Origin: Alphaproteobacteria bacterium
GTDB lineage: Bacteria; Pseudomonadota; Alphaproteobacteria; Micavibrionales; Micavibrionaceae
Length of the DNA: 64,000 bases
Assembly (NCBI GenBank): GCA_002690045.1
Contig: NZDE01000007.1
Location: 18,387-82,386 of the forward strand
Reading direction: 5' to 3'
Shown here: one piece after another, positions 55,959 to 64,000 of the stretch
How the letters are laid out: the number at the start of each line of letters is the position of its first letter
How positions within the stretch are numbered: position 1 is the stretch's first letter
Notes under the pieces: generated by a model
Seen by the model: the letters and a program-made list of their open reading frames with translations, nothing else
Databases searched by the model: none
What the model was told of the DNA's origin: nothing
Program-made: the position numbers and the translations under genes

Positions 55959-56033
55959 GCGGGTGTAGCTCAGGGGTAGAGCATCAGCTTCCCAAGCTGA
56001 GGGCCGTGGGTTCGAAACCCATCACCCGCTCCA
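55959..56033 (+). tRNA. tRNA-Gly (anticodon CCC), CCA encoded
   Basis: The acceptor stem GCGGGTG pairs with CACCCGC. The anticodon arm is TCAGC-TTCCCAA-GCTGA, so the anticodon is CCC (reads GGG). The T arm is GTGGG-TTCGAAA-CCCAT, followed by discriminator T and CCA. The D arm GCTC...GAGC is present. The cloverleaf is complete. Confidence 0.95.
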
Positions 56034-56071: not shown

Positions 56072-56815
56072 TTATGCATAACAAAGATTGTCGACCTTAA
56101 TCTCGGGCTGAAATACAGGCGGAGCTGTTTGCTTTACAGTTTCTTTCTGTGTCAAGCGGTTAATAAAATCCTGCGCTAACATTGCATTCGGAGATAACTT
56201 ATATGACGATGATGCAACCAAAACAGCCTGAACATTATAAGCAAACAGCTTCGTTTCCAATCCATTATCAATGAGCGACTGACCGCTATCGACAATCTCG
56301 AAAATTGCATCTGCGCTACCATCGCGCACTTCGTCTTCGCTATCCCCATCACATTCAATAATTTCTACATTCTGTACATCTTGCGCAGATAGCCACGCCT
56401 TCAAGCTATAAGGAAATGCTGTTGCAATCGTCTTGCCTTCTAAATCAGCGGCACTTTCTATGCCCAAAGATGGTTTCGCTGCAATATACATACGGCAGGC
56501 CGCACAGTTAAAATCCGCCACCGCAGACAAACCAAAACGTTCACCTGTTAACTCCGCCTTACATTTTGCTTCAATAAATTTATCAACGCCCATCACTGCT
56601 AAATCAGCCGCGCCAGATTTTAACTTACGCAGCGCATCAAGCGGTTTGCGCTCTGCTGCATCAATAACTGGCAAATCACCACGCTCATCAACACAAACAC
56701 CATATGCATGACGTGATTTTTCGCGTGAGAAATGCAGATCAGCCGCCGCCATGATTGGCGCGAAAGCCTCTCTTAACCGTTTCTGCTTTGGTAAAATCAC
56801 CGTCAAATCTTGCAT
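56072..56815 (-). CDS. hisG: HisG-like ATP phosphoribosyltransferase, short form, divergent
   Basis: 247 residues. Similar to HisG in LTVILPKQKRLREAFAPIMA at the start, LKSGAADLAVMGVDKFIEAK near 67-86, and the PRPP-binding region ECDGDSEDEVRDGSADAIFE then IVDSGQSLIDNGL near 155-190, where the family has E-x-x-G-S-V-E...L-A-D-A-I-(V/F)-D-L/I-V-x-(T/S)-G. There is no HisG_C regulatory domain, so it is short-form and would need HisZ, which is not in view. First step of histidine synthesis if active. It is downstream of, and very close to, a TrpR/YerC-like gene. Confidence 0.8.
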   Translation of the reverse strand: MQDLTVILPKQKRLREAFAPIMAAADLHFSREKSRHAYGVCVDERGDLPVIDAAERKPLDALRKLKSGAADLAVMGVDKFIEAKCKAELTGERFGLSAVADFNCAACRMYIAAKPSLGIESAADLEGKTIATAFPYSLKAWLSAQDVQNVEIIECDGDSEDEVRDGSADAIFEIVDSGQSLIDNGLETKLFAYNVQAVLVASSSYKLSPNAMLAQDFINRLTQKETVKQTAPPVFQPEIKVDNLCYA

Positions 56816-56826
56816 AATACACCCCT

Positions 56827-57099
56827 TTATGCGTTTTGGGTTAGCCGTTCAATAATGCGTAAATAACCTTTATTATTCTCCTGTTGTAAGAAACGCGCGA
56901 CACGGCCAATCGTTGTTGTACTTGCCCCTGTCTGCGCGCTAATCTCGCGATAAGAGAGCTGCCCCTCATAAAGCAAATTTGCAATCAACCAACGTTCACG
57001 CATAGCGTTAAGCTCCGCCGGCGTGCATAAATCCCCCATAAATGCAGCGCATTCATCTTCGCTTCCTAGGGACAATATTGCTTGATATAAATCGATCAT
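56827..57099 (-). CDS. TrpR-superfamily (YerC/YecD) transcriptional regulator
   Basis: 90 residues. It matches the YerC/YecD pattern: LCTPAELNAMRERWLIANLL (helix before the HTH), then YREISAQTGASTTTIGRVAR (helix-turn-helix) and FLQQENNKGY. A relative in Firmicutes regulates histidine genes, and here the gene sits 11 bp upstream of a hisG-like gene, supporting control of histidine metabolism. DNA target sites are not identified. Confidence 0.88.
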   Translation of the reverse strand: MIDLYQAILSLGSEDECAAFMGDLCTPAELNAMRERWLIANLLYEGQLSYREISAQTGASTTTIGRVARFLQQENNKGYLRIIERLTQNA

Positions 57100-57213: not shown

Positions 57214-60200
57214 CTACAGACAGCCATCAGCACACTTCTTAAAGTCGATATAGAAGCGATAGAAATTCTTACCGTTCGGTGTCAGCATCATCTTGTTGTC
57301 GATTATGATTTTCTGTGCCGCATTAATTGTAACCGAAGCACCATTTGCGCCGAGTTTTTCAACTTTGAAGTCTTTAATGATATGCGGTTTACTGTTAATC
57401 CAGCTTTGCATAGCTTGCCAATCAACATCTTGGATTTCTAGTGTGACCTGTTTACGGTCCGATTGTTCCCACGTGCGGATAGCCGTCGGAGCGGAAAGAT
57501 CCAGAACAACACGAAGTTTATCTGAATACTCCCCGATCCGAACTTTGCTAACGCGGACACCGGATGTGCCCTTGTAGGTAGGAATGGCTTGGATACCGGA
57601 TGTATCCTTACCGGTCTTAGAGGCGGCTTGAACACCGGATGTGTCCTCGCCTTTAGTGATTAGAGCTGGCTGTTGCACCCCAGCAACAGATGTATCCTCA
57701 TCATGGCAAATTTGGGTTATTCCGCCATCTAAGTTGGATACATCGCATGCCGCTTCCGCAGCCTGCTCTAAGGTTTGAAGGTCTATCCCAAACTGGAATA
57801 GTTCTTCGGAAGTCACCGAGACGGATCTCGGTGGGATGGAAACTTGTGTGATTTCGGGATCAACTTGAACGATATAATCCCCCGGACGGACATATTCGAA
57901 ACTGTAATAGCCGTCAAAAGCTGCGCGCGTCTCGTCAAGCAGCTGATTATCTTGATCTAACAATTGAACTTTTATAGACGCAATACCGCCCTGATGATCG
58001 CTAACGATCCCTTCAACTATTCCCGTACGAATAACAGGGAAATCAAAATTGTTATATTGCCCAGCCCGCAGCACAGTCTTGAACTGTTCACTATTAGGCA
58101 CAACATAAGGCTCAGGAACTGAGGATACATCAACGCTAAGTGCTTCATAGTCATTCTTAGAACTACCTATATATGAGAACCCGCCATCTTCATTTGACAC
58201 ATCGCTACTGCGGCGTCCTATTTTTACGTTGGCTCCCTGTATGGGCTCATCACCTTCACTAAAAATACCATCATAATCATTATCAAAGAAAATACGCCCT
58301 GATAGCGCCGTACGATTAGTAAGATTTTGGTTCGACATAATATATTTAGAATTCGCACCAAATGGGGCGAGAGAGAAACGTGAACGAAGCAACGCACGTG
58401 CCCCGCTCTCACTATCCCAGTCCACATCAACACTGGCATGCATATGCTCAAAATCGTAACCCACTTGCGCGCCAATCTTAGAACTTTCATTTTCGAAATT
58501 CCGATTAACATCAAATGCCGCCGTTAATCCATCGCGGTTTTTATACCTAAGCTCCGCAAAGACGTCTCTTAATGAATATTCAGGATATATGTCATACCTG
58601 CTAAGCGCACGTAGCTTCCAATTTCGGTCTATACTATATTGAAAATTCAAAGTGCCATATGTGTATTGATGCTCAACTTGGTTAAATGAAGACTTTGTGC
58701 TATTTGTAAACCTAAATTTCTTGAAAGATAGAGATTGTGAAGAATCAAAACGCGTACGTGACGTCTTGTCTTTATAACGTTCGTAATCCCAACCTAAACT
58801 TAACCCCAAACCACCGAATGGCGTTTGAAACGAACGGCTAGCTGACGCATTCGCGTTTAAAATATCTGCTCTATTGCCATAGCCGATATATTCACTTTCG
58901 AAATCATTAAGTAACGCCGCGCGGAAATTTAAATTTGTTCCTTTAAAATTACGTGCCATAGAAAAATCTATCGCACTACCACCCTCTAAGCTCCTATACG
59001 CCTCAACTGCACCTATCGCATCGAAAAGAGAGAATTTTAGCCCCAAAGACGCGTAACGCTGTGCACCTGAGTTCGTCGGCATATCCGTCAGCGTAGAAAA
59101 CAATGTCGCAGTACGCGACAAACCATAATTTATATTAATGTTTTTCGCAAAACCGCGCGGCTGTTGACTGACTTCATCCTGACCAATTGACAACAAGTCA
59201 CGATCTGCATCTAACAAGCCGACTTCATAGTTAAGCTGCCCTGGTTTAAGCCGATCCCGCGAGATATTATAGACATCTTCGCGCGTTTCAATTTGCCCTT
59301 GTGGCCCGTATAAAACAGTTTTAATAACTGTACGGTTATAATTAAGCTGTACATTTTCAAAACGATATTCACCAGTATCACTGGCAATTTGGAACCCCAA
59401 AAGTTCAGTATTACGATAAAGCTCAACCTCCCAACCTGGCTCAGTAACGCCCTCAACAACTAATGTATCAAATTCAACCGTTCTTTTCGTATCACGGTTT
59501 GTAAATAAAATTCCTCGCCCGCGAATAGACCCATCAACAAGACGTGAAGGACGCACCGTTACATCACCCGCCTGGAATAAATTCAAATCCGCAGGCAAAT
59601 CACCATCATCATAAGCACGTTTAGTATAGGTAACGCGCACATTATCAAGCCCCTTGTCACCATCTGGTGCATTTACTAACTGTGCATTATAATTCACTTC
59701 ACCATAGGCAAAGTCGTTACGCCCAGAGAAGTTAACATTTTCTCTATGCTGACTATCTTGTGCCTGATATTGCAATGTCGTATTCACATCAACAACGGGC
59801 AGGCTAAACATTTTCGGCTTGTTAGGTAATTTTAAGACGCCTTCATCATCATATTTCTGCGCATCTTTTTGTTGTTTTCGCAGAAGACGAGTCGTACGGC
59901 GTGCCTCACGTTTTTGTTGAATTTGATAGAGAAGTTTGTCTTTTGTATTGATATTTAAACGCGCTTGTAAATAGTCGAGTTCAAAATCTAGATTCCATAG
60001 CTTGTTCAGGAAATCTACTGTGGCAAAAACCTCTTTGACTCCATAACCAAGCTCATACACAAAGAGCTCATCCTCACTATAAGGATAAGTTCTGCCTTTA
60101 ACCATATATGTACCCTGCGCCAGATCCACAGCAAAGGGGTTGGATTCCACAAATCGGAAACCATCAAACTTGCCTACATCAAAATCAGCATCCAAAGCGA

Positions 60201-60435
60201 CACCAACAATGCGCGCAAGCTCAACCACCGGAAGAAAGCGTGTCTCACCTTTCTCAAGTCCGATAATCGCGTTGGACAACATCTTCCCTTCGTGCTTAAC
60301 CCCCAAAATAAGGTCATACACTTCCTCTGAGCCGACATCATCAGCCCATGAAGAGGGTACAAAACACCCCAGAAAAACGGCGCACGCAAGCAACGCGCAC
60401 AACGCCCGCTTTAAAAAATTGCCATTATGATTCAT
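57214..60435 (-). CDS. Usher-like outer-membrane protein with unusual C-terminal SdrD-B/AMIN modules (1073 aa)
   Basis: Signal peptide about 1-31 (ALLACAVFLGCFVPSSWA). Residues about 36-165 form an N-terminal usher-like domain (GLEKGETRFLPVVELARIVG), then a basic linker (QQKREARRTTRLLRK) near 170-195. About 210-700 is barrel- and plug-like: FQAGDVTVRPSRLVDGSIRG near 285, and EPGWEVELYRNTELLGFQ then GEYRFENVQLNYN, the DVYxNG/FELxxLP-type plug arrangement of ushers. About 705-780 is SdrD-B-like (GRIFFDNDYDGIFSEGDEPI), 800-870 carboxypeptidase-regulatory-like (GIVSDHQGGIASIKVQLLDQ), 905-960 carries DTSG repeats, and 963-1065 is AMIN-like (GEYSDKLRVVLDLSAPTAIR). It would export subunits brought by the PapD-like chaperone upstream. 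Ordinary ushers end in beta-sandwich CTDs, not AMIN, so this layout is unusual. Confidence 0.75.
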   Translation of the reverse strand: MNHNGNFLKRALCALLACAVFLGCFVPSSWADDVGSEEVYDLILGVKHEGKMLSNAIIGLEKGETRFLPVVELARIVGVALDADFDVGKFDGFRFVESNPFAVDLAQGTYMVKGRTYPYSEDELFVYELGYGVKEVFATVDFLNKLWNLDFELDYLQARLNINTKDKLLYQIQQKREARRTTRLLRKQQKDAQKYDDEGVLKLPNKPKMFSLPVVDVNTTLQYQAQDSQHRENVNFSGRNDFAYGEVNYNAQLVNAPDGDKGLDNVRVTYTKRAYDDGDLPADLNLFQAGDVTVRPSRLVDGSIRGRGILFTNRDTKRTVEFDTLVVEGVTEPGWEVELYRNTELLGFQIASDTGEYRFENVQLNYNRTVIKTVLYGPQGQIETREDVYNISRDRLKPGQLNYEVGLLDADRDLLSIGQDEVSQQPRGFAKNININYGLSRTATLFSTLTDMPTNSGAQRYASLGLKFSLFDAIGAVEAYRSLEGGSAIDFSMARNFKGTNLNFRAALLNDFESEYIGYGNRADILNANASASRSFQTPFGGLGLSLGWDYERYKDKTSRTRFDSSQSLSFKKFRFTNSTKSSFNQVEHQYTYGTLNFQYSIDRNWKLRALSRYDIYPEYSLRDVFAELRYKNRDGLTAAFDVNRNFENESSKIGAQVGYDFEHMHASVDVDWDSESGARALLRSRFSLAPFGANSKYIMSNQNLTNRTALSGRIFFDNDYDGIFSEGDEPIQGANVKIGRRSSDVSNEDGGFSYIGSSKNDYEALSVDVSSVPEPYVVPNSEQFKTVLRAGQYNNFDFPVIRTGIVEGIVSDHQGGIASIKVQLLDQDNQLLDETRAAFDGYYSFEYVRPGDYIVQVDPEITQVSIPPRSVSVTSEELFQFGIDLQTLEQAAEAACDVSNLDGGITQICHDEDTSVAGVQQPALITKGEDTSGVQAASKTGKDTSGIQAIPTYKGTSGVRVSKVRIGEYSDKLRVVLDLSAPTAIRTWEQSDRKQVTLEIQDVDWQAMQSWINSKPHIIKDFKVEKLGANGASVTINAAQKIIIDNKMMLTPNGKNFYRFYIDFKKCADGCL
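57550..57710 (-). repeat. DTSG(V/I) short tandem repeats in the usher-like gene
   Basis: Four degenerate units DTSVAGVQ, DTSGVQAA, DTSGIQAI and GTSGVRVS occur at roughly 15-20-residue spacing, with the nucleotide core ACACCGGATGTGTCC repeated with variants. This is a likely linker between the carboxypeptidase-regulatory-like and AMIN-like parts and a possible site of unit-number change. Confidence 0.6.
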
Positions 60436-60550
60436 CGCTCAGAATAGAGCCTTAGAAAATTAGCAGAATAACCCACCACAATTGTAACAGAGGCCTGTAA
60501 ATAAAAAAGAATATATCAAACTATTCCACAGGTTATCCCGAGAATATTCA

Positions 60551-60584
60551 CAAAAAAAAAAAAATGCCGCAAAATTGCGGCATT
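60551..60584 (-). terminator. Minus-strand terminator between chaperone and usher-like genes
   Basis: AATGCCGCAA and TTGCGGCATT form a perfect 10-bp stem around AA. On the minus strand it is followed by a run of about 13 T. It lies 26 bp after the chaperone stop and before the usher-like start, so most transcripts should end here, with limited read-through or a separate promoter for the usher. Confidence 0.85.
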
Positions 60585-60609
60585 CATAAAAAATTAACAA
60601 ATCAAAGCT

Positions 60610-61479
60610 CTATCTGCTCACTGCACCCGTGGCCAATACCTTTCCCTGCAAGGGGTCGTCCATATGCCCAACAATCTCCACACGCATATTGCTGCAATTT
60701 TTTCCAGCCTTTGACGGGTTTACAGGTATACGCTCAGCGCGCGAACTTGCCTCAGCATATACCGCAAAAAGCTTAGACGCTGTATCAATACGCACATCAC
60801 CACAATACGCATGCGCATACGCAATCACACTTCTGTTACCGGTCTTACCAACGCGCACCTCAACAAAATAAGGGATCTGCGCACGCCGCTTGGGCTCAGG
60901 ATGCGGAACAAGACTTGCTGATAAAAGCTGAACACTCACATCATTTTTACCCTTACGCACATATACTGGAATAGCGCGCGAAACCAAAAGCTTCACACCA
61001 ACAGCCGCATTACCATCCCCAGACAGCCCTACATCATCCTCAGCCGCAGGCAGCTGCTCTATCACAAAGTGACTTCTATACTCCCCATCTGGCAAGCTCG
61101 CGGGACGACGAACAAGCATAGATATACGCTGTGTCTGCCCCGGCTCCAAGGTCGTTCGACGCGGTGAAAAACGCACCAAATCATCCGCCGCCTTATACAA
61201 AGGAACATCAGGCGCGCCTTCGTTATCAACATTCACCACATCACCATTAGTCGTCATCGCCAAATGCCGCCAACCAAAACGGTACGCAACCTTATGCGGA
61301 GTGGAATTCTTAATATACAAATACTGCATATTAACACCATCCTCAAACACCAAACGTGGCGGCGAGATCTTCATAGCGTACGCAGTTTCACCCGCAAAAC
61401 AAAGCGATAAAACAACCAACACAAGAGCCAATATAATCTTATTAAACCCTCCATCAAAACCTATACGCATATTCGTCAT
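60610..61479 (-). CDS. PapD-like periplasmic pilus chaperone
   Basis: 289 residues, start 61479 (AAAGGAAAAAAT upstream). Signal region (IILALVLVVLSLCFAGETAY). The N-terminal immunoglobulin-like domain begins MKISPPRLVFEDGVNMQYLY then IKNSTPHKVAYRFGW near 35-70, with the chaperone pattern (P-x-R-x-x-x...-x-x-N-x-x), then RFSPRRTTLEPGQTQRISML near 110 (the proline-rich Q-x-x-R strand). A second domain follows. Divergent from FimC/PapD. It lies between subunit genes and the usher-like gene. Confidence 0.8.
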   Translation of the reverse strand: MTNMRIGFDGGFNKIILALVLVVLSLCFAGETAYAMKISPPRLVFEDGVNMQYLYIKNSTPHKVAYRFGWRHLAMTTNGDVVNVDNEGAPDVPLYKAADDLVRFSPRRTTLEPGQTQRISMLVRRPASLPDGEYRSHFVIEQLPAAEDDVGLSGDGNAAVGVKLLVSRAIPVYVRKGKNDVSVQLLSASLVPHPEPKRRAQIPYFVEVRVGKTGNRSVIAYAHAYCGDVRIDTASKLFAVYAEASSRAERIPVNPSKAGKNCSNMRVEIVGHMDDPLQGKVLATGAVSR

Positions 61480-61498
61480 ATTTTTTCCTTTAATTCAC

Positions 61499-62014
61499 TT
61501 ACGGAATAGCCGTAACTATTACTTGAAAACTTGTGCTATAAGAGCCAGAAGGCTCGCCCAAGCCAAAACGCAGACGCCCCCCGACGCGAAAAACATGGTT
61601 TGGGTTAATAGAGCTCGCATTAAATGTATAAGCATTTAGCTGTGAGCCGCCCGCCGTCTGAATCAGGTAATTATCCAAAGTCACCTGCCCCGCCCCAACT
61701 TGATTGTCCATCGTCACAGCTGGGGACGCAAACGTTACACGCACATCTGACGCAGCAGTCGCCAATGTCGTCCCGATTGTACAAATCGCCGGCATGGGTG
61801 ACGCCATAACTTGACTATGACAGCCATTATTTGCCGTATTACTCGCGGCCGTACCCCGCACAGTGATCGTCCCATTACAAAGCGGTATTATACGCCCAAA
61901 TGTAATATTACGCGTACAACTAATTGTTGGCGCCGCCATAGCCGCACGGGCAGGCATCGACAAAAAAGCGACGGCAGAAACCAAAACTGTAACTTTGCTT
62001 TTTCCATGAAACAT
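61499..62014 (-). CDS. DUF4402-like fimbrial/surface subunit 2
   Basis: Start at ATG 62014 (GGAATG upstream; a TTG one codon before is an alternative). 171 residues with a signal (VLVSAVAFLSMPARAAMA). It begins the mature part SCTRNITFGRIIPLCNGTIT with several cysteines and ends HVFRVGGRLRFGLGEPSGSY then STSFQVIVTAIP, which matches DUF4402 tails (V-G-G-x-L-x-...-P-x-G-x-Y-x-x-x-x-x-(V/I)-x-V). It is likely a minor or tip subunit. It starts 118 bp after the first subunit stop. Confidence 0.75.
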   Translation of the reverse strand: MFHGKSKVTVLVSAVAFLSMPARAAMAAPTISCTRNITFGRIIPLCNGTITVRGTAASNTANNGCHSQVMASPMPAICTIGTTLATAASDVRVTFASPAVTMDNQVGAGQVTLDNYLIQTAGGSQLNAYTFNASSINPNHVFRVGGRLRFGLGEPSGSYSTSFQVIVTAIP

Positions 62015-62078
62015 CAAAACATTCCTAACTGCATAATACTAACTATAGAGCGCCACAAATCTAATGCAATCAATACAC

Positions 62079-62109
62079 AAAAAAACCCACCATATTCTGG
62101 TGGGTTTTT
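62079..62109 (-). terminator. Minus-strand terminator between the two subunit genes
   Basis: CCCACCA pairs with TGGTGGG around TATTC, with A-runs on the plus strand left side and T-run on the right side. On the minus strand it ends in about seven T. It lies 23 bp after the first subunit gene. This position would make the first subunit message the most abundant. Confidence 0.85.
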
Positions 62110-62131
62110 ATTAAATCTATTCAACAATAAC

Positions 62132-62710
62132 TTAAGGAACGTCGTTAATATTAATTGTGAACGTACCTGTGTTATATGTACCAACGTTTGGCGTACCTGA
62201 GAACGCGATACGACCACCAACACGCACGTCAGTCGCACCACCACCTGCGAAACTTGCCGCCGCGCCAGTCGCACTTGCCGCAACCGCAACAGTTGCGCCC
62301 ATACCTGGGCCGCCAAATGTCAATTGGTTCACAATAATATCACCCGCGTTGTACGAAATCGGTGCACTTAATGTGATTTCAACACTTGCCGCATCATCAC
62401 CAGCTGCAATGTTGAACGAACCAGGCGAACCAGCGTTAATCACCGTCGCGTTTGTCGCCACTGAGGTAACACCCAGAGGTGACAATGTGTGGTTACCTGA
62501 AATAGCACCTGTTGTTGCAATCGCCAAGCGACCGAAATCTAGTGGCGTTGTTGTGTCCAACGCGATAGCTGTCACAACTTCTAGACTCACGTCAACAGAC
62601 GCCGTGCCAGCGACAGCTGTGTTTGATACTGGTGGTACAAAACCACTCATTACTGCTAATGCGGAACCCGCAATAAGCGTCTTTTTCATGTCAAGTTTGT
62701 TAATATCCAT
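62132..62710 (-). CDS. DUF4402-like major fimbrial/surface subunit 1
   Basis: 192 residues; ATG 62710 has AAGGAGTGAGAT upstream, a strong RBS. The signal is MKKTLIAGSALAVMSGFVPP after seven extra residues. The mature part reads ASVDVSLEVVTAIALDTTTP then LDFGRLAI, and the tail DVRVGGRIAFSGTPNVGTYN then TGTFTININDVP is typical of DUF4402. It lacks cysteines after the signal. High Ala/Thr/Gly/Ser. Strong RBS and a following terminator suggest it is the most abundant subunit. Confidence 0.8.
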   Translation of the reverse strand: MDINKLDMKKTLIAGSALAVMSGFVPPVSNTAVAGTASVDVSLEVVTAIALDTTTPLDFGRLAIATTGAISGNHTLSPLGVTSVATNATVINAGSPGSFNIAAGDDAASVEITLSAPISYNAGDIIVNQLTFGGPGMGATVAVAASATGAAASFAGGGATDVRVGGRIAFSGTPNVGTYNTGTFTININDVP

Positions 62711-63031: not shown

Positions 63032-64000
63032 ATGTGTGCGCAACCAGCTCGCCCAAATTACAAAAGCAAAAATTATGAATTGCCCGTTGAAGAAGCGCTA
63101 GAACTCGCGCGCGGCCACCACATGATTGGTAATTTTACGCTAGCGGAGCGCACATATAAAGATATATTGAAAGCTGTTCCAGACAATGCGACCGTTCTTC
63201 ACCTGCTCGGCGCATTATACTACCAGCTTAGCAATTATGATCTTGCCCTTGAATACATGGAAAAATCAATTGAGATCAGCCCCCAGGAAGTAAGCTATTT
63301 AAATAACTACGCCAATGTATTGGCCGTCTCACAACATTTTGCTGAAGCCATTATCCAGTTTGACAAAATACTATCGCTCACCCCCCAAAACATAGAGGCT
63401 TTAAATGGAAAATCCAACACATTATGGAGCATGAAAGACTTTGAAAACGCCGAAACTGTTGCACGTGAAAGCCTTAAAGCTGCTCCCAACAATTTAGAGG
63501 CACTGTTAGCTCTTGGCCTAAGCCTTGCAAGCCAGAAAAAGTTTGAAGAGGCAAATGAATCATTCCAAACAGCTATGGAGCATTACTCCCAAGATTCACG
63601 TGTGTTTAGCAACGCCGCAAATATGCTGCGTGAGATGCATAAATACGGCAAAGCAGAAGACGCCGCGAGAAAAGCCCTAGAAATTGATAAAAACAATATT
63701 GAAGCCCTTAACAATATGGGCTGTATCCTATCCGATACAGGGCGCTATGCTAATGCCGTAGAATTTTTTACAAAGGCAACAGATATTAGCCCTAAGTTCT
63801 ACCAAGCGCATTTAAACAAAGCATTAGCCCTCCACAACAATGGTGAAAATGCCGCCGCCGCAGTTTCTGCGCGCTACGCTGTTGATTTTAAACCAGACTA
63901 TACAGACGCATATAACGCTCTCAGCTCATCCCTGTGCCGCCTTGGCGAATATGACCAAGCGCAATTTGCCCTGCAAAAGGCTTTACAACTCAACCCAGAT
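63032..64000 (+). CDS. TPR-repeat protein (partial, runs off the right edge)
   Basis: ATG 63032 follows AAAAAAGGACTGAAATTT. 323 codons are open to the window end with no stop. The protein is made of tetratricopeptide repeats: GNFTLAERTYKDILKAVPDN, LGALYYQLSNYDLALEYMEK, NMGCILSDTGRYANAVEFFT and SSLCRLGEYDQAQFALQKAL. It probably has at least eight repeats in view and may carry a catalytic C-terminal domain beyond the edge (as in TPR-sulfotransferases or glycosyltransferases); this cannot be seen. It is divergent from the fimbrial locus and could be unrelated. Confidence 0.9.
   Translation, partial: MCAQPARPNYKSKNYELPVEEALELARGHHMIGNFTLAERTYKDILKAVPDNATVLHLLGALYYQLSNYDLALEYMEKSIEISPQEVSYLNNYANVLAVSQHFAEAIIQFDKILSLTPQNIEALNGKSNTLWSMKDFENAETVARESLKAAPNNLEALLALGLSLASQKKFEEANESFQTAMEHYSQDSRVFSNAANMLREMHKYGKAEDAARKALEIDKNNIEALNNMGCILSDTGRYANAVEFFTKATDISPKFYQAHLNKALALHNNGENAAAAVSARYAVDFKPDYTDAYNALSSSLCRLGEYDQAQFALQKALQLNPD

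Follow-up and report, generated by a model that had tools for sequence, protein, structure and literature searches.

The 64,000-nucleotide stretch of DNA analysed here (the window), from an alphaproteobacterium of the Micavibrionales, carries four minus-strand genes that probably encode a fibre system of the chaperone-usher kind, with an usher tied to peptidoglycan. Two of the genes (D2 and D1) encode DUF4402 subunits, one a PapD-like chaperone and one a 1073-residue protein whose predicted structure is that of a FimD/PapC-type usher with an AMIN domain behind its C-terminal domains. All four had been listed by an initial annotation made from the sequence, and all are present where it had placed them (Table 1). 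Chaperone-usher assembly is already known, and the AMIN-tailed DUF4402 version is a real new variant of it; in searches of the open-licence literature, neither a fibre system with DUF4402 subunits nor an usher tailed by AMIN or SPOR was found to have been described. Pili of the chaperone-usher type belong to textbook knowledge, and we know of no case in which an usher has been credited with a device deciding its place on the cell. The presence of two different septal-wall modules on one usher family makes usher placement directly testable, and DUF4402 gains a likely function, that of a pilin, across several proteobacterial groups.

The usher and its AMIN tail

Usher-like N-terminal and plug motifs had been proposed in the initial annotation, and the predicted structure, modelled with AlphaFold2 from 51 window and related sequences (predicted local distance difference test (pLDDT) 83.7, predicted template modelling (TM) score 0.62), shows an usher barrel with a plug. 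That is, an N-terminal domain (residues 39-162) is followed by six long strands, the plug (about residues 318-376) and some 18-19 more long strands up to residue 690, and beyond the barrel lie beta-rich domains to residue 888, a disordered linker (892-957) and a final domain (958-1068; pLDDT mostly around 90). The top 19 Foldseek matches of this model were all FimD or PapC (E 1.8e-28 to 1.2e-9), and VIA-align gave Z-scores of up to 20.7, with model residues 202-888 aligned on FimD 131-833. As modelled, the protein is a FimD/PapC-type usher with barrel, plug and N- and C-terminal periplasmic domains; FimD, too, has its plug after strand 6.

The usher identity rests on structure because the sequence searches of Pfam, NCBIfam and PDB missed the usher. 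The window protein had no Usher match in Pfam or NCBIfam, and a single-sequence PDB search showed no usher for it. The curated cut-off of PF00577 (27.1 bits) was reached in none of the 38 related genomes, the sole match being the usher of a congener at a sub-cutoff score (E 1.2e-5, 24.1 bits), and among six proteins compared with NCBIfam one plasmid homologue had a sub-cutoff match to a fimbrial usher model (E 0.049). By score, then, the window usher is usher-built but outside Pfam PF00577. It differs from FimD and PapC in this respect and in sequence, sharing 10-12% of aligned residues with them in the 18 top-listed structural alignments.

The initial annotation had also held that the C-terminal domains of the usher were replaced by other modules. 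This was ruled out by the alignment given above, in which model residue 888 pairs with FimD 833, where the alignment ends. The SdrD_B/CarboxypepD_reg match (residues 807-859) lies in the region aligned with the FimD C-terminal domains; the ordinary domains are therefore kept, and the linker and AMIN domain are additions. In an alignment of 12 ushers, the DTSG repeats of the linker are confined to the window protein and the two from its congeners.

The AMIN-like module noticed in the initial annotation is borne out more firmly than its Pfam match (E 0.035, below cut-off) would indicate. Residues 958-1068 superimpose on the AMIN part of Escherichia coli AmiC (4bin) with Z 15.0 and a root-mean-square deviation (rmsd) of 2.3 A over 110 residues, and in profile-profile comparison the usher tails matched 16 AMIN domains of related genomes at 99.6% (E 5e-25), against 1.3% for the same tails with a SPOR profile. 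All eight of those 16 reference proteins that were checked are amidases with AMIN plus Amidase_3. Moreover, PF11741 gave matches with E no higher than 0.1 in 9 of the 29 usher homologues, the best at 7.7e-7. By homology and predicted fold, the AMIN domain of the window usher is real, and in the model it is added after the normal C-terminal domains via a disordered linker of about 66 residues. A chance match, suggested by the weak Pfam score, was ruled out by the AmiC structure match and the profile comparison. The usher thus resembles AmiC-type amidases in AMIN fold and profile but is unlike them in being an usher without an amidase domain (Pfam), and its AMIN domain probably binds peptidoglycan.

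Subunits, chaperone and conservation of the gene set

Both subunits proved to be of the DUF4402 type that had been assigned to them, matching PF14352 above cut-off (D2, E 5.6e-9; D1, E 1.7e-11). The D2 model (pLDDT 77.8) has an unpaired N-terminus. Its best Foldseek match, to a type 1 pilus subunit, was weak (E 0.058), and its comparisons with chaperone-usher pilins gave Z 6.2-7.6, whereas a Z below 8 can reflect no more than a similar overall layout; the matched pilins include those of CupE (Z 6.6) and Csu (Z 6.2) as well as EcpA (Z 6.3), although no test here put the system itself among the archaic or alternative types. As modelled, D2 has a pilin-like fold with moderate support, and it may be the incomplete Ig fold with N-terminal donor strand of a chaperone-usher subunit. 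Across loci, the distance from predicted signal cleavage to the FG motif is mostly 22-29 residues in one subunit and mostly 10-14 in the other. At 34 loci the number of DUF4402 genes scored was exactly two, and 27 of these loci pair an extended with an unextended subunit. This count omits the G-handle loci L021-L036 that duplicate named records or the window, and likewise any subunit for which no cleavage site was predicted and any locus where the number of scored subunits was not two. The extension rule misplaces some cleavage sites: L061 was scored 'same' yet holds orthologues of the window pair. We take the extended type for a putative polymerising pilin that carries a donor strand, and the other for a putative tip subunit that lacks it.

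The window chaperone matched PapD_N below cut-off (E 0.087), and 14 of 26 chaperone homologues matched it at E up to 0.1 (best 9.4e-7), in agreement with the PapD-like chaperone first proposed.

The window clade was defined as 38 loci (L061-L098) with 34 complete ushers, L094 and L095 (broken usher frame), L096 and L097 (contig ends) and a second L070 cluster being excluded from the latter. AMIN is fused to 29 of the 34. Within the fetched stretches of the 27 window-clade loci with at least 6.5 kb upstream, a chaperone gene was found at 24 and a DUF4402 gene at 25, a gene for a tetratricopeptide repeat (TPR)-sulfotransferase at 21 and one for a protein of about 405 aa at 15. The initial annotation expected homologues to come with both partners, and most of them do; partnerless ushers occur but are rare, neither chaperone nor DUF4402 having been found in the fetched stretch at L066 and L075, while L089 had no detected chaperone. 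Chaperone and DUF4402 also both accompany 17 of the 25 complete ushers at more distant named loci (L099 on). In a tree of 74 ushers (quick method, LG+G4, with the Shimodaira-Hasegawa-like approximate likelihood ratio test (SH-aLRT) as sole support), all 30 AMIN-tailed ushers, the window included, fell in one clade of 35 (SH-aLRT 100), and the AMIN distribution needs four changes, e.g. one gain and three losses. This tree has long branches meeting (L113 with L121, L105 with L124) and uneven letter make-up in 28 rows. The second L070 cluster (L070:13479-18442) is a diverged DUF4402-chaperone-usher set without AMIN on the same contig, after the first. At L094:7866-10838 (also L036) the usher is split into frames of 482 and 444 aa, by pseudogene formation or assembly error.

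AMIN occurs also as a separate gene. In the window clade such a gene lies in the fetched stretch for 8 of the 29 ushers with fused AMIN and for 2 of the 5 that lack it; among the 15 distant same-order usher loci L039-L053, it is present at 9. In the tree, a clade with SPOR-like tails has 8 of its 10 rows among those nine loci, and the other distant rows L041, L043 and L044 are not among them. The separate proteins carry their AMIN domain at the C-terminus, and many of them show, by eye, an N-terminal lipobox-like motif, a helical-looking stretch and a proline-rich spacer; four of six that were scanned passed the Pfam AMIN cut-off. AMIN matches number 0-3 per genome (19 genomes), and in genomes near 2 Mb we estimate that usher and AMIN would be neighbours within 10 kb by chance in a few percent of cases. 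The window's genome likewise has a separate AMIN protein (343 aa; G000:C13:139142-139492, L057), on a contig other than that of the usher.

A second wall-binding family appears on related ushers. All 12 distant same-order usher tails together matched a SPOR profile at 11.8% (E 0.0025), and seven of them, picked afterwards by eye, at 84.5% (E 6.9e-6; score 34.3 versus at most 13.3 in 20 column shuffles), with 61-87% upon leaving out one of the seven at a time. The 12 tails plus three from outside Alphaproteobacteria gave 90.0% (E 1.7e-6), and Pfam SPOR was matched by one of eight distant same-order tails (E 0.19). These tails are called SPOR-like, not SPOR, because the match of all 12 is low and the seven were chosen by eye afterwards. 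Ushers of other groups support the link to SPOR independently. In a phylum sample of 398 genomes, 15 genomes matched at E up to 1e-15, and 12 with an usher remained after removal of the window's own and of G357 and G038, whose matches lay solely in frames of 3901-4824 aa, taken by length and coverage not to be ushers. Three of these 12 carry SPOR above the Pfam cut-off after the C-terminal domains (E 1.2e-6, 3.3e-9 and 4.7e-8); in two more the tail is short and, taken together with a Pseudoalteromonas tail, matches SPOR by profile (70.1%, E 4e-5) but not by Pfam. All five SPOR-matching phylum-sample ushers lie outside the window's class, and Pfam found no SPOR in the two scanned of the seven phylum-sample ushers of that class.

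SPOR was further found in cis on a Pseudoalteromonas usher (above cut-off, E 6.7e-5) and on a Psychromonas usher (below cut-off, E 0.004). In trans, and above cut-off, it is encoded by a gene 3' of the usher in two Glaciecola loci, by two genes at another Pseudoalteromonas locus, one of which overlaps the usher gene end, and by a gene ahead of the usher at one Psychromonas locus. In the tree, the clade bearing SPOR-like tails has the Glaciecola ushers as its sister group (98). Neighbours of distant ushers, chosen for Pfam scanning by position and not exhaustively, gave no match at L105:10541, L124, L099:4906, L116, L128, L113, L100, L126 and L103 and matches to unrelated families, none wall-binding, at L108, L102 and L132; two usher neighbours in a second Pseudoalteromonas record had no wall-binding match either. 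At L105:11198-12226, in a gammaproteobacterial assembly, a FlgT middle domain (E 7.3e-13) is encoded between the usher and DUF4402 genes. The system proposed in the initial annotation therefore stands as chaperone-usher-like, with DUF4402 subunits and an AMIN-tailed usher, but was drawn too narrowly, since SPOR is a second wall-binding family and the usher family extends beyond the window's order.

Proposed placement of the usher and competing explanations

In the mechanism that we propose, Sec would export the two DUF4402 subunits and the PapD-like chaperone would cap both. The usher N-terminal domain would receive the chaperone-subunit pairs while the C-terminal domains hold the growing chain, and donor-strand exchange would join the subunits, the unextended one going first to form the tip and the extended one polymerising. 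We infer donor-strand exchange and this working cycle from FimD and PapC. The flexible linker and AMIN domain would tie the usher to peptidoglycan, and AMIN would put it at the division site and hence at the new pole. The whole explanation, that of a chaperone-usher fibre system with its usher held on peptidoglycan, is probable; septal or polar placement of the usher, argued by analogy, is quite possible, with its chance a little short of even. Septal placement is the most likely use, given that recognition of septal wall is known for AMIN and SPOR alike, and that a single usher family bears these two unrelated domains in the same position argues for placement beyond mere anchoring. The type IV pilus machine is directed by the AMIN domains of PilQ to the poles and to the septum or future division sites (PMC5285504 and PMC10653833), and SPOR domains bind denuded glycan, which is enriched at the septum (PMC6895207). 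As a broader and more tentative proposal, the usher branch may place fibres: AMIN (in Micavibrio-like organisms) or SPOR (outside Alphaproteobacteria, and probably in a second Micavibrio-order group) would have been grafted on or beside the usher several times to give a polar fibre, with sulfation by the TPR-sulfotransferase as an extra layer in the window's clade.

The system resembles type 1 (FimD/FimC) and P (PapC/PapD) pili in its usher fold, PapD-like chaperone and extended pilin-like subunit, and differs from such classical systems in its DUF4402 subunits and in an usher that continues past its C-terminal domains into a linker and an AMIN domain. To our knowledge, no wall-binding usher tail is known in the archaic and alternative systems (Csu, CupE, Ecp). 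Archaic chaperone-usher systems do reach alphaproteobacteria (PMC4654587). With PilQ the usher would share an outer-membrane fibre pore with a periplasmic AMIN domain and the same proposed placement logic (PMC5285504 and PMC10653833), but PilQ is a secretin and carries AMIN N-terminally, whereas here an usher carries it C-terminally, so that the likeness is one of analogy only.

Several results weigh against the proposal of an AMIN-placed chaperone-usher system. A profile of 29 ushers compared with PDB gave no usher and only SdrD-like domains. Over the whole chain, the first 18 FimD and PapC rows gave low TM-scores (0.27-0.38, normalised by query length), and the rmsd is large (8.9 A over 550 residues; 5.2 A over 389 against the FimD translocation domain); the usher claim is therefore limited to the fold. 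For D2, two cannula proteins of archaea head the structural comparison (Z 8.5 and 7.9). With the chaperone profile, WxL-interacting proteins of Gram-positive bacteria scored better (E 0.0034) than PapD (0.3) and FimC (0.4). AMIN is missing from 5 of the 34 window-clade ushers, three of which also have no separate AMIN in the fetched stretch, from all 25 complete ushers of the more distant named loci and, by our profile, from the seven phylum-sample ushers of the window's class. Since AMIN is missing from many ushers, the tail is not essential to assembly. The SPOR-like reading of the distant Micavibrio-order ushers, moreover, comes solely from profiles, and three species described in PMC10653833 break the correlation between AMIN and polar pili.

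The main rival to placement is anchoring alone, in which AMIN would be a mechanical anchor anywhere on the cell, resisting the pull of the fibre or setting how far the usher sits from the wall, without selecting a site. AMIN and SPOR generally bind the wall, the 66-residue linker would give reach, and the three species just mentioned have AMIN in PilQ but no polar pili. We nevertheless consider a plain anchor rather unlikely: both module families are septum readers in known proteins (PMC10653833 and PMC6895207), and Pfam scans of the 29 ushers revealed no OmpA-like or LysM domains, with most neighbours unscanned. Less probable still is a tail that modulates assembly not by binding the wall but through contact with another protein, which might be the separate AMIN protein or a regulator of amidases. 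The occurrence of AMIN both fused and separate, with eight loci having both, would suit such a contact, but the swap for the unrelated SPOR in relatives is more easily explained by a shared ligand, the wall.

It is also conceivable that the usher exports the DUF4402 proteins as a surface coat or for release and builds no fibre at all. The pilin fold of D2 is only moderately supported, with the weak Foldseek match, pilin Z-scores under 8 and the two archaeal cannula rows ranked higher, which would leave room for this; the extended/unextended pairs at 27 of 34 loci, plus the plug, the N- and C-terminal domains and the chaperone, are fibre-assembly parts, however, and make export without a fibre very improbable. 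The preferred explanation of a wall-held chaperone-usher fibre system has a further, speculative corollary. Among the bacteria called Micavibrio are well-known predators which fasten themselves to their prey (PMC6145908), and if the fibre is polar it would be a candidate prey-attachment organelle.

Locus layout, accessory genes and neighbours

The features of the locus are collected in Table 1. For D1 the list of open reading frames places a TTG start three bases ahead of the ATG used here. The two terminator-like hairpins would fit a falling supply, from pilin to tip and chaperone to usher.

Table 1. Coordinates of the fibre gene cluster and associated features in the window
Feature	Position	Strand	Remarks
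D2 gene	62132..62710	minus	192 aa; DUF4402, signal peptide, extended at the N-terminus; proposed as the pilin that polymerises
D1 gene	61499..62014	minus	171 aa from ATG; DUF4402, signal peptide, without N-terminal extension; proposed tip/first subunit
PapD-like periplasmic chaperone gene	60610..61479	minus	289 aa
AMIN-tailed usher gene	57214..60435	minus	1073 aa
Usher N-terminal periplasmic domain, residues 39-162	59950..60321	minus	Model secondary structure; assigned by position
Usher beta barrel, residues 214-690	58366..59796	minus	Model and fold alignment; plug inserted after six long strands
Usher plug, about residues 318-376	59308..59484	minus	Model; approximate boundaries
Usher C-terminal domains, residues 710-888	57772..58308	minus	Alignment to FimD end, residue 833; Pfam SdrD_B/CarboxypepD_reg 807-859
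Disordered linker with DTSG repeats, residues 892-957	57565..57762	minus	pLDDT under 50
AMIN domain, residues 958-1068	57232..57564	minus	4bin AmiC structural match and profile match
Terminator-like hairpin 3' of D2 gene	62081..62109	minus	-20.1 kcal/mol for 51-nt stretch, z -4.85
Terminator-like hairpin between chaperone and usher genes	60562..60585	minus	-14.9 kcal/mol for 61-nt stretch, z -4.06
TPR-sulfotransferase gene, possible accessory	63032..64000	plus	Runs off window; 805 aa in L021

The TPR-sulfotransferase gene, complete at L021:11419-13836, is divergent from the pilin gene. Strong matches to it (E below 1e-149) numbered 17 among the 38 related genomes, and 12 of the 17 lie, by coordinates, within about 10 kb of an usher. 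The enzyme could sulfate a fibre subunit. The protein of about 405 aa (L025:10673-11884, L029:4085-5308 and others) is often encoded between the DUF4402 genes and is absent from the window locus; the two copies scanned gave no convincing Pfam match, and a SET-methyltransferase-like motif was seen by eye.

Plasmid records annotate these ushers as 'carboxypeptidase regulatory-like', 'SdrD B-like' or 'hypothetical', and in several of five such records the adjoining genes are annotated 'DUF4402' and 'molecular chaperone' or 'fimbria/pilus periplasmic chaperone'. The usher family is hidden from plasmid annotation. On a Polaromonas plasmid typed as conjugative (L187, NC_007950.1 62268-74649), the cluster is flanked by two IS6 transposase genes, and such clusters can therefore be mobile. 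Further plasmid copies occur in Sphingopyxis, Novosphingobium and Pseudoalteromonas. An assembly named Thermoplasmata archaeon (L129, PWHR01000044.1) likewise contains DUF4402, chaperone and usher genes, probably on a contaminating contig.

The source of the window is a 2.88 Mb draft genome whose nearest named relatives are metagenome assemblies, several of them labelled Micavibrio. After the usher gene, the minus strand encodes a Trp-repressor-like protein (56827-57099, E 4e-22) and a HisG-like protein (56072-56815, E 3e-25), and the congener L022 has similar-sized frames at the place of both. A tRNA-Gly (CCC) at 55959-56033 on the plus strand is the only tRNA detected in the window.

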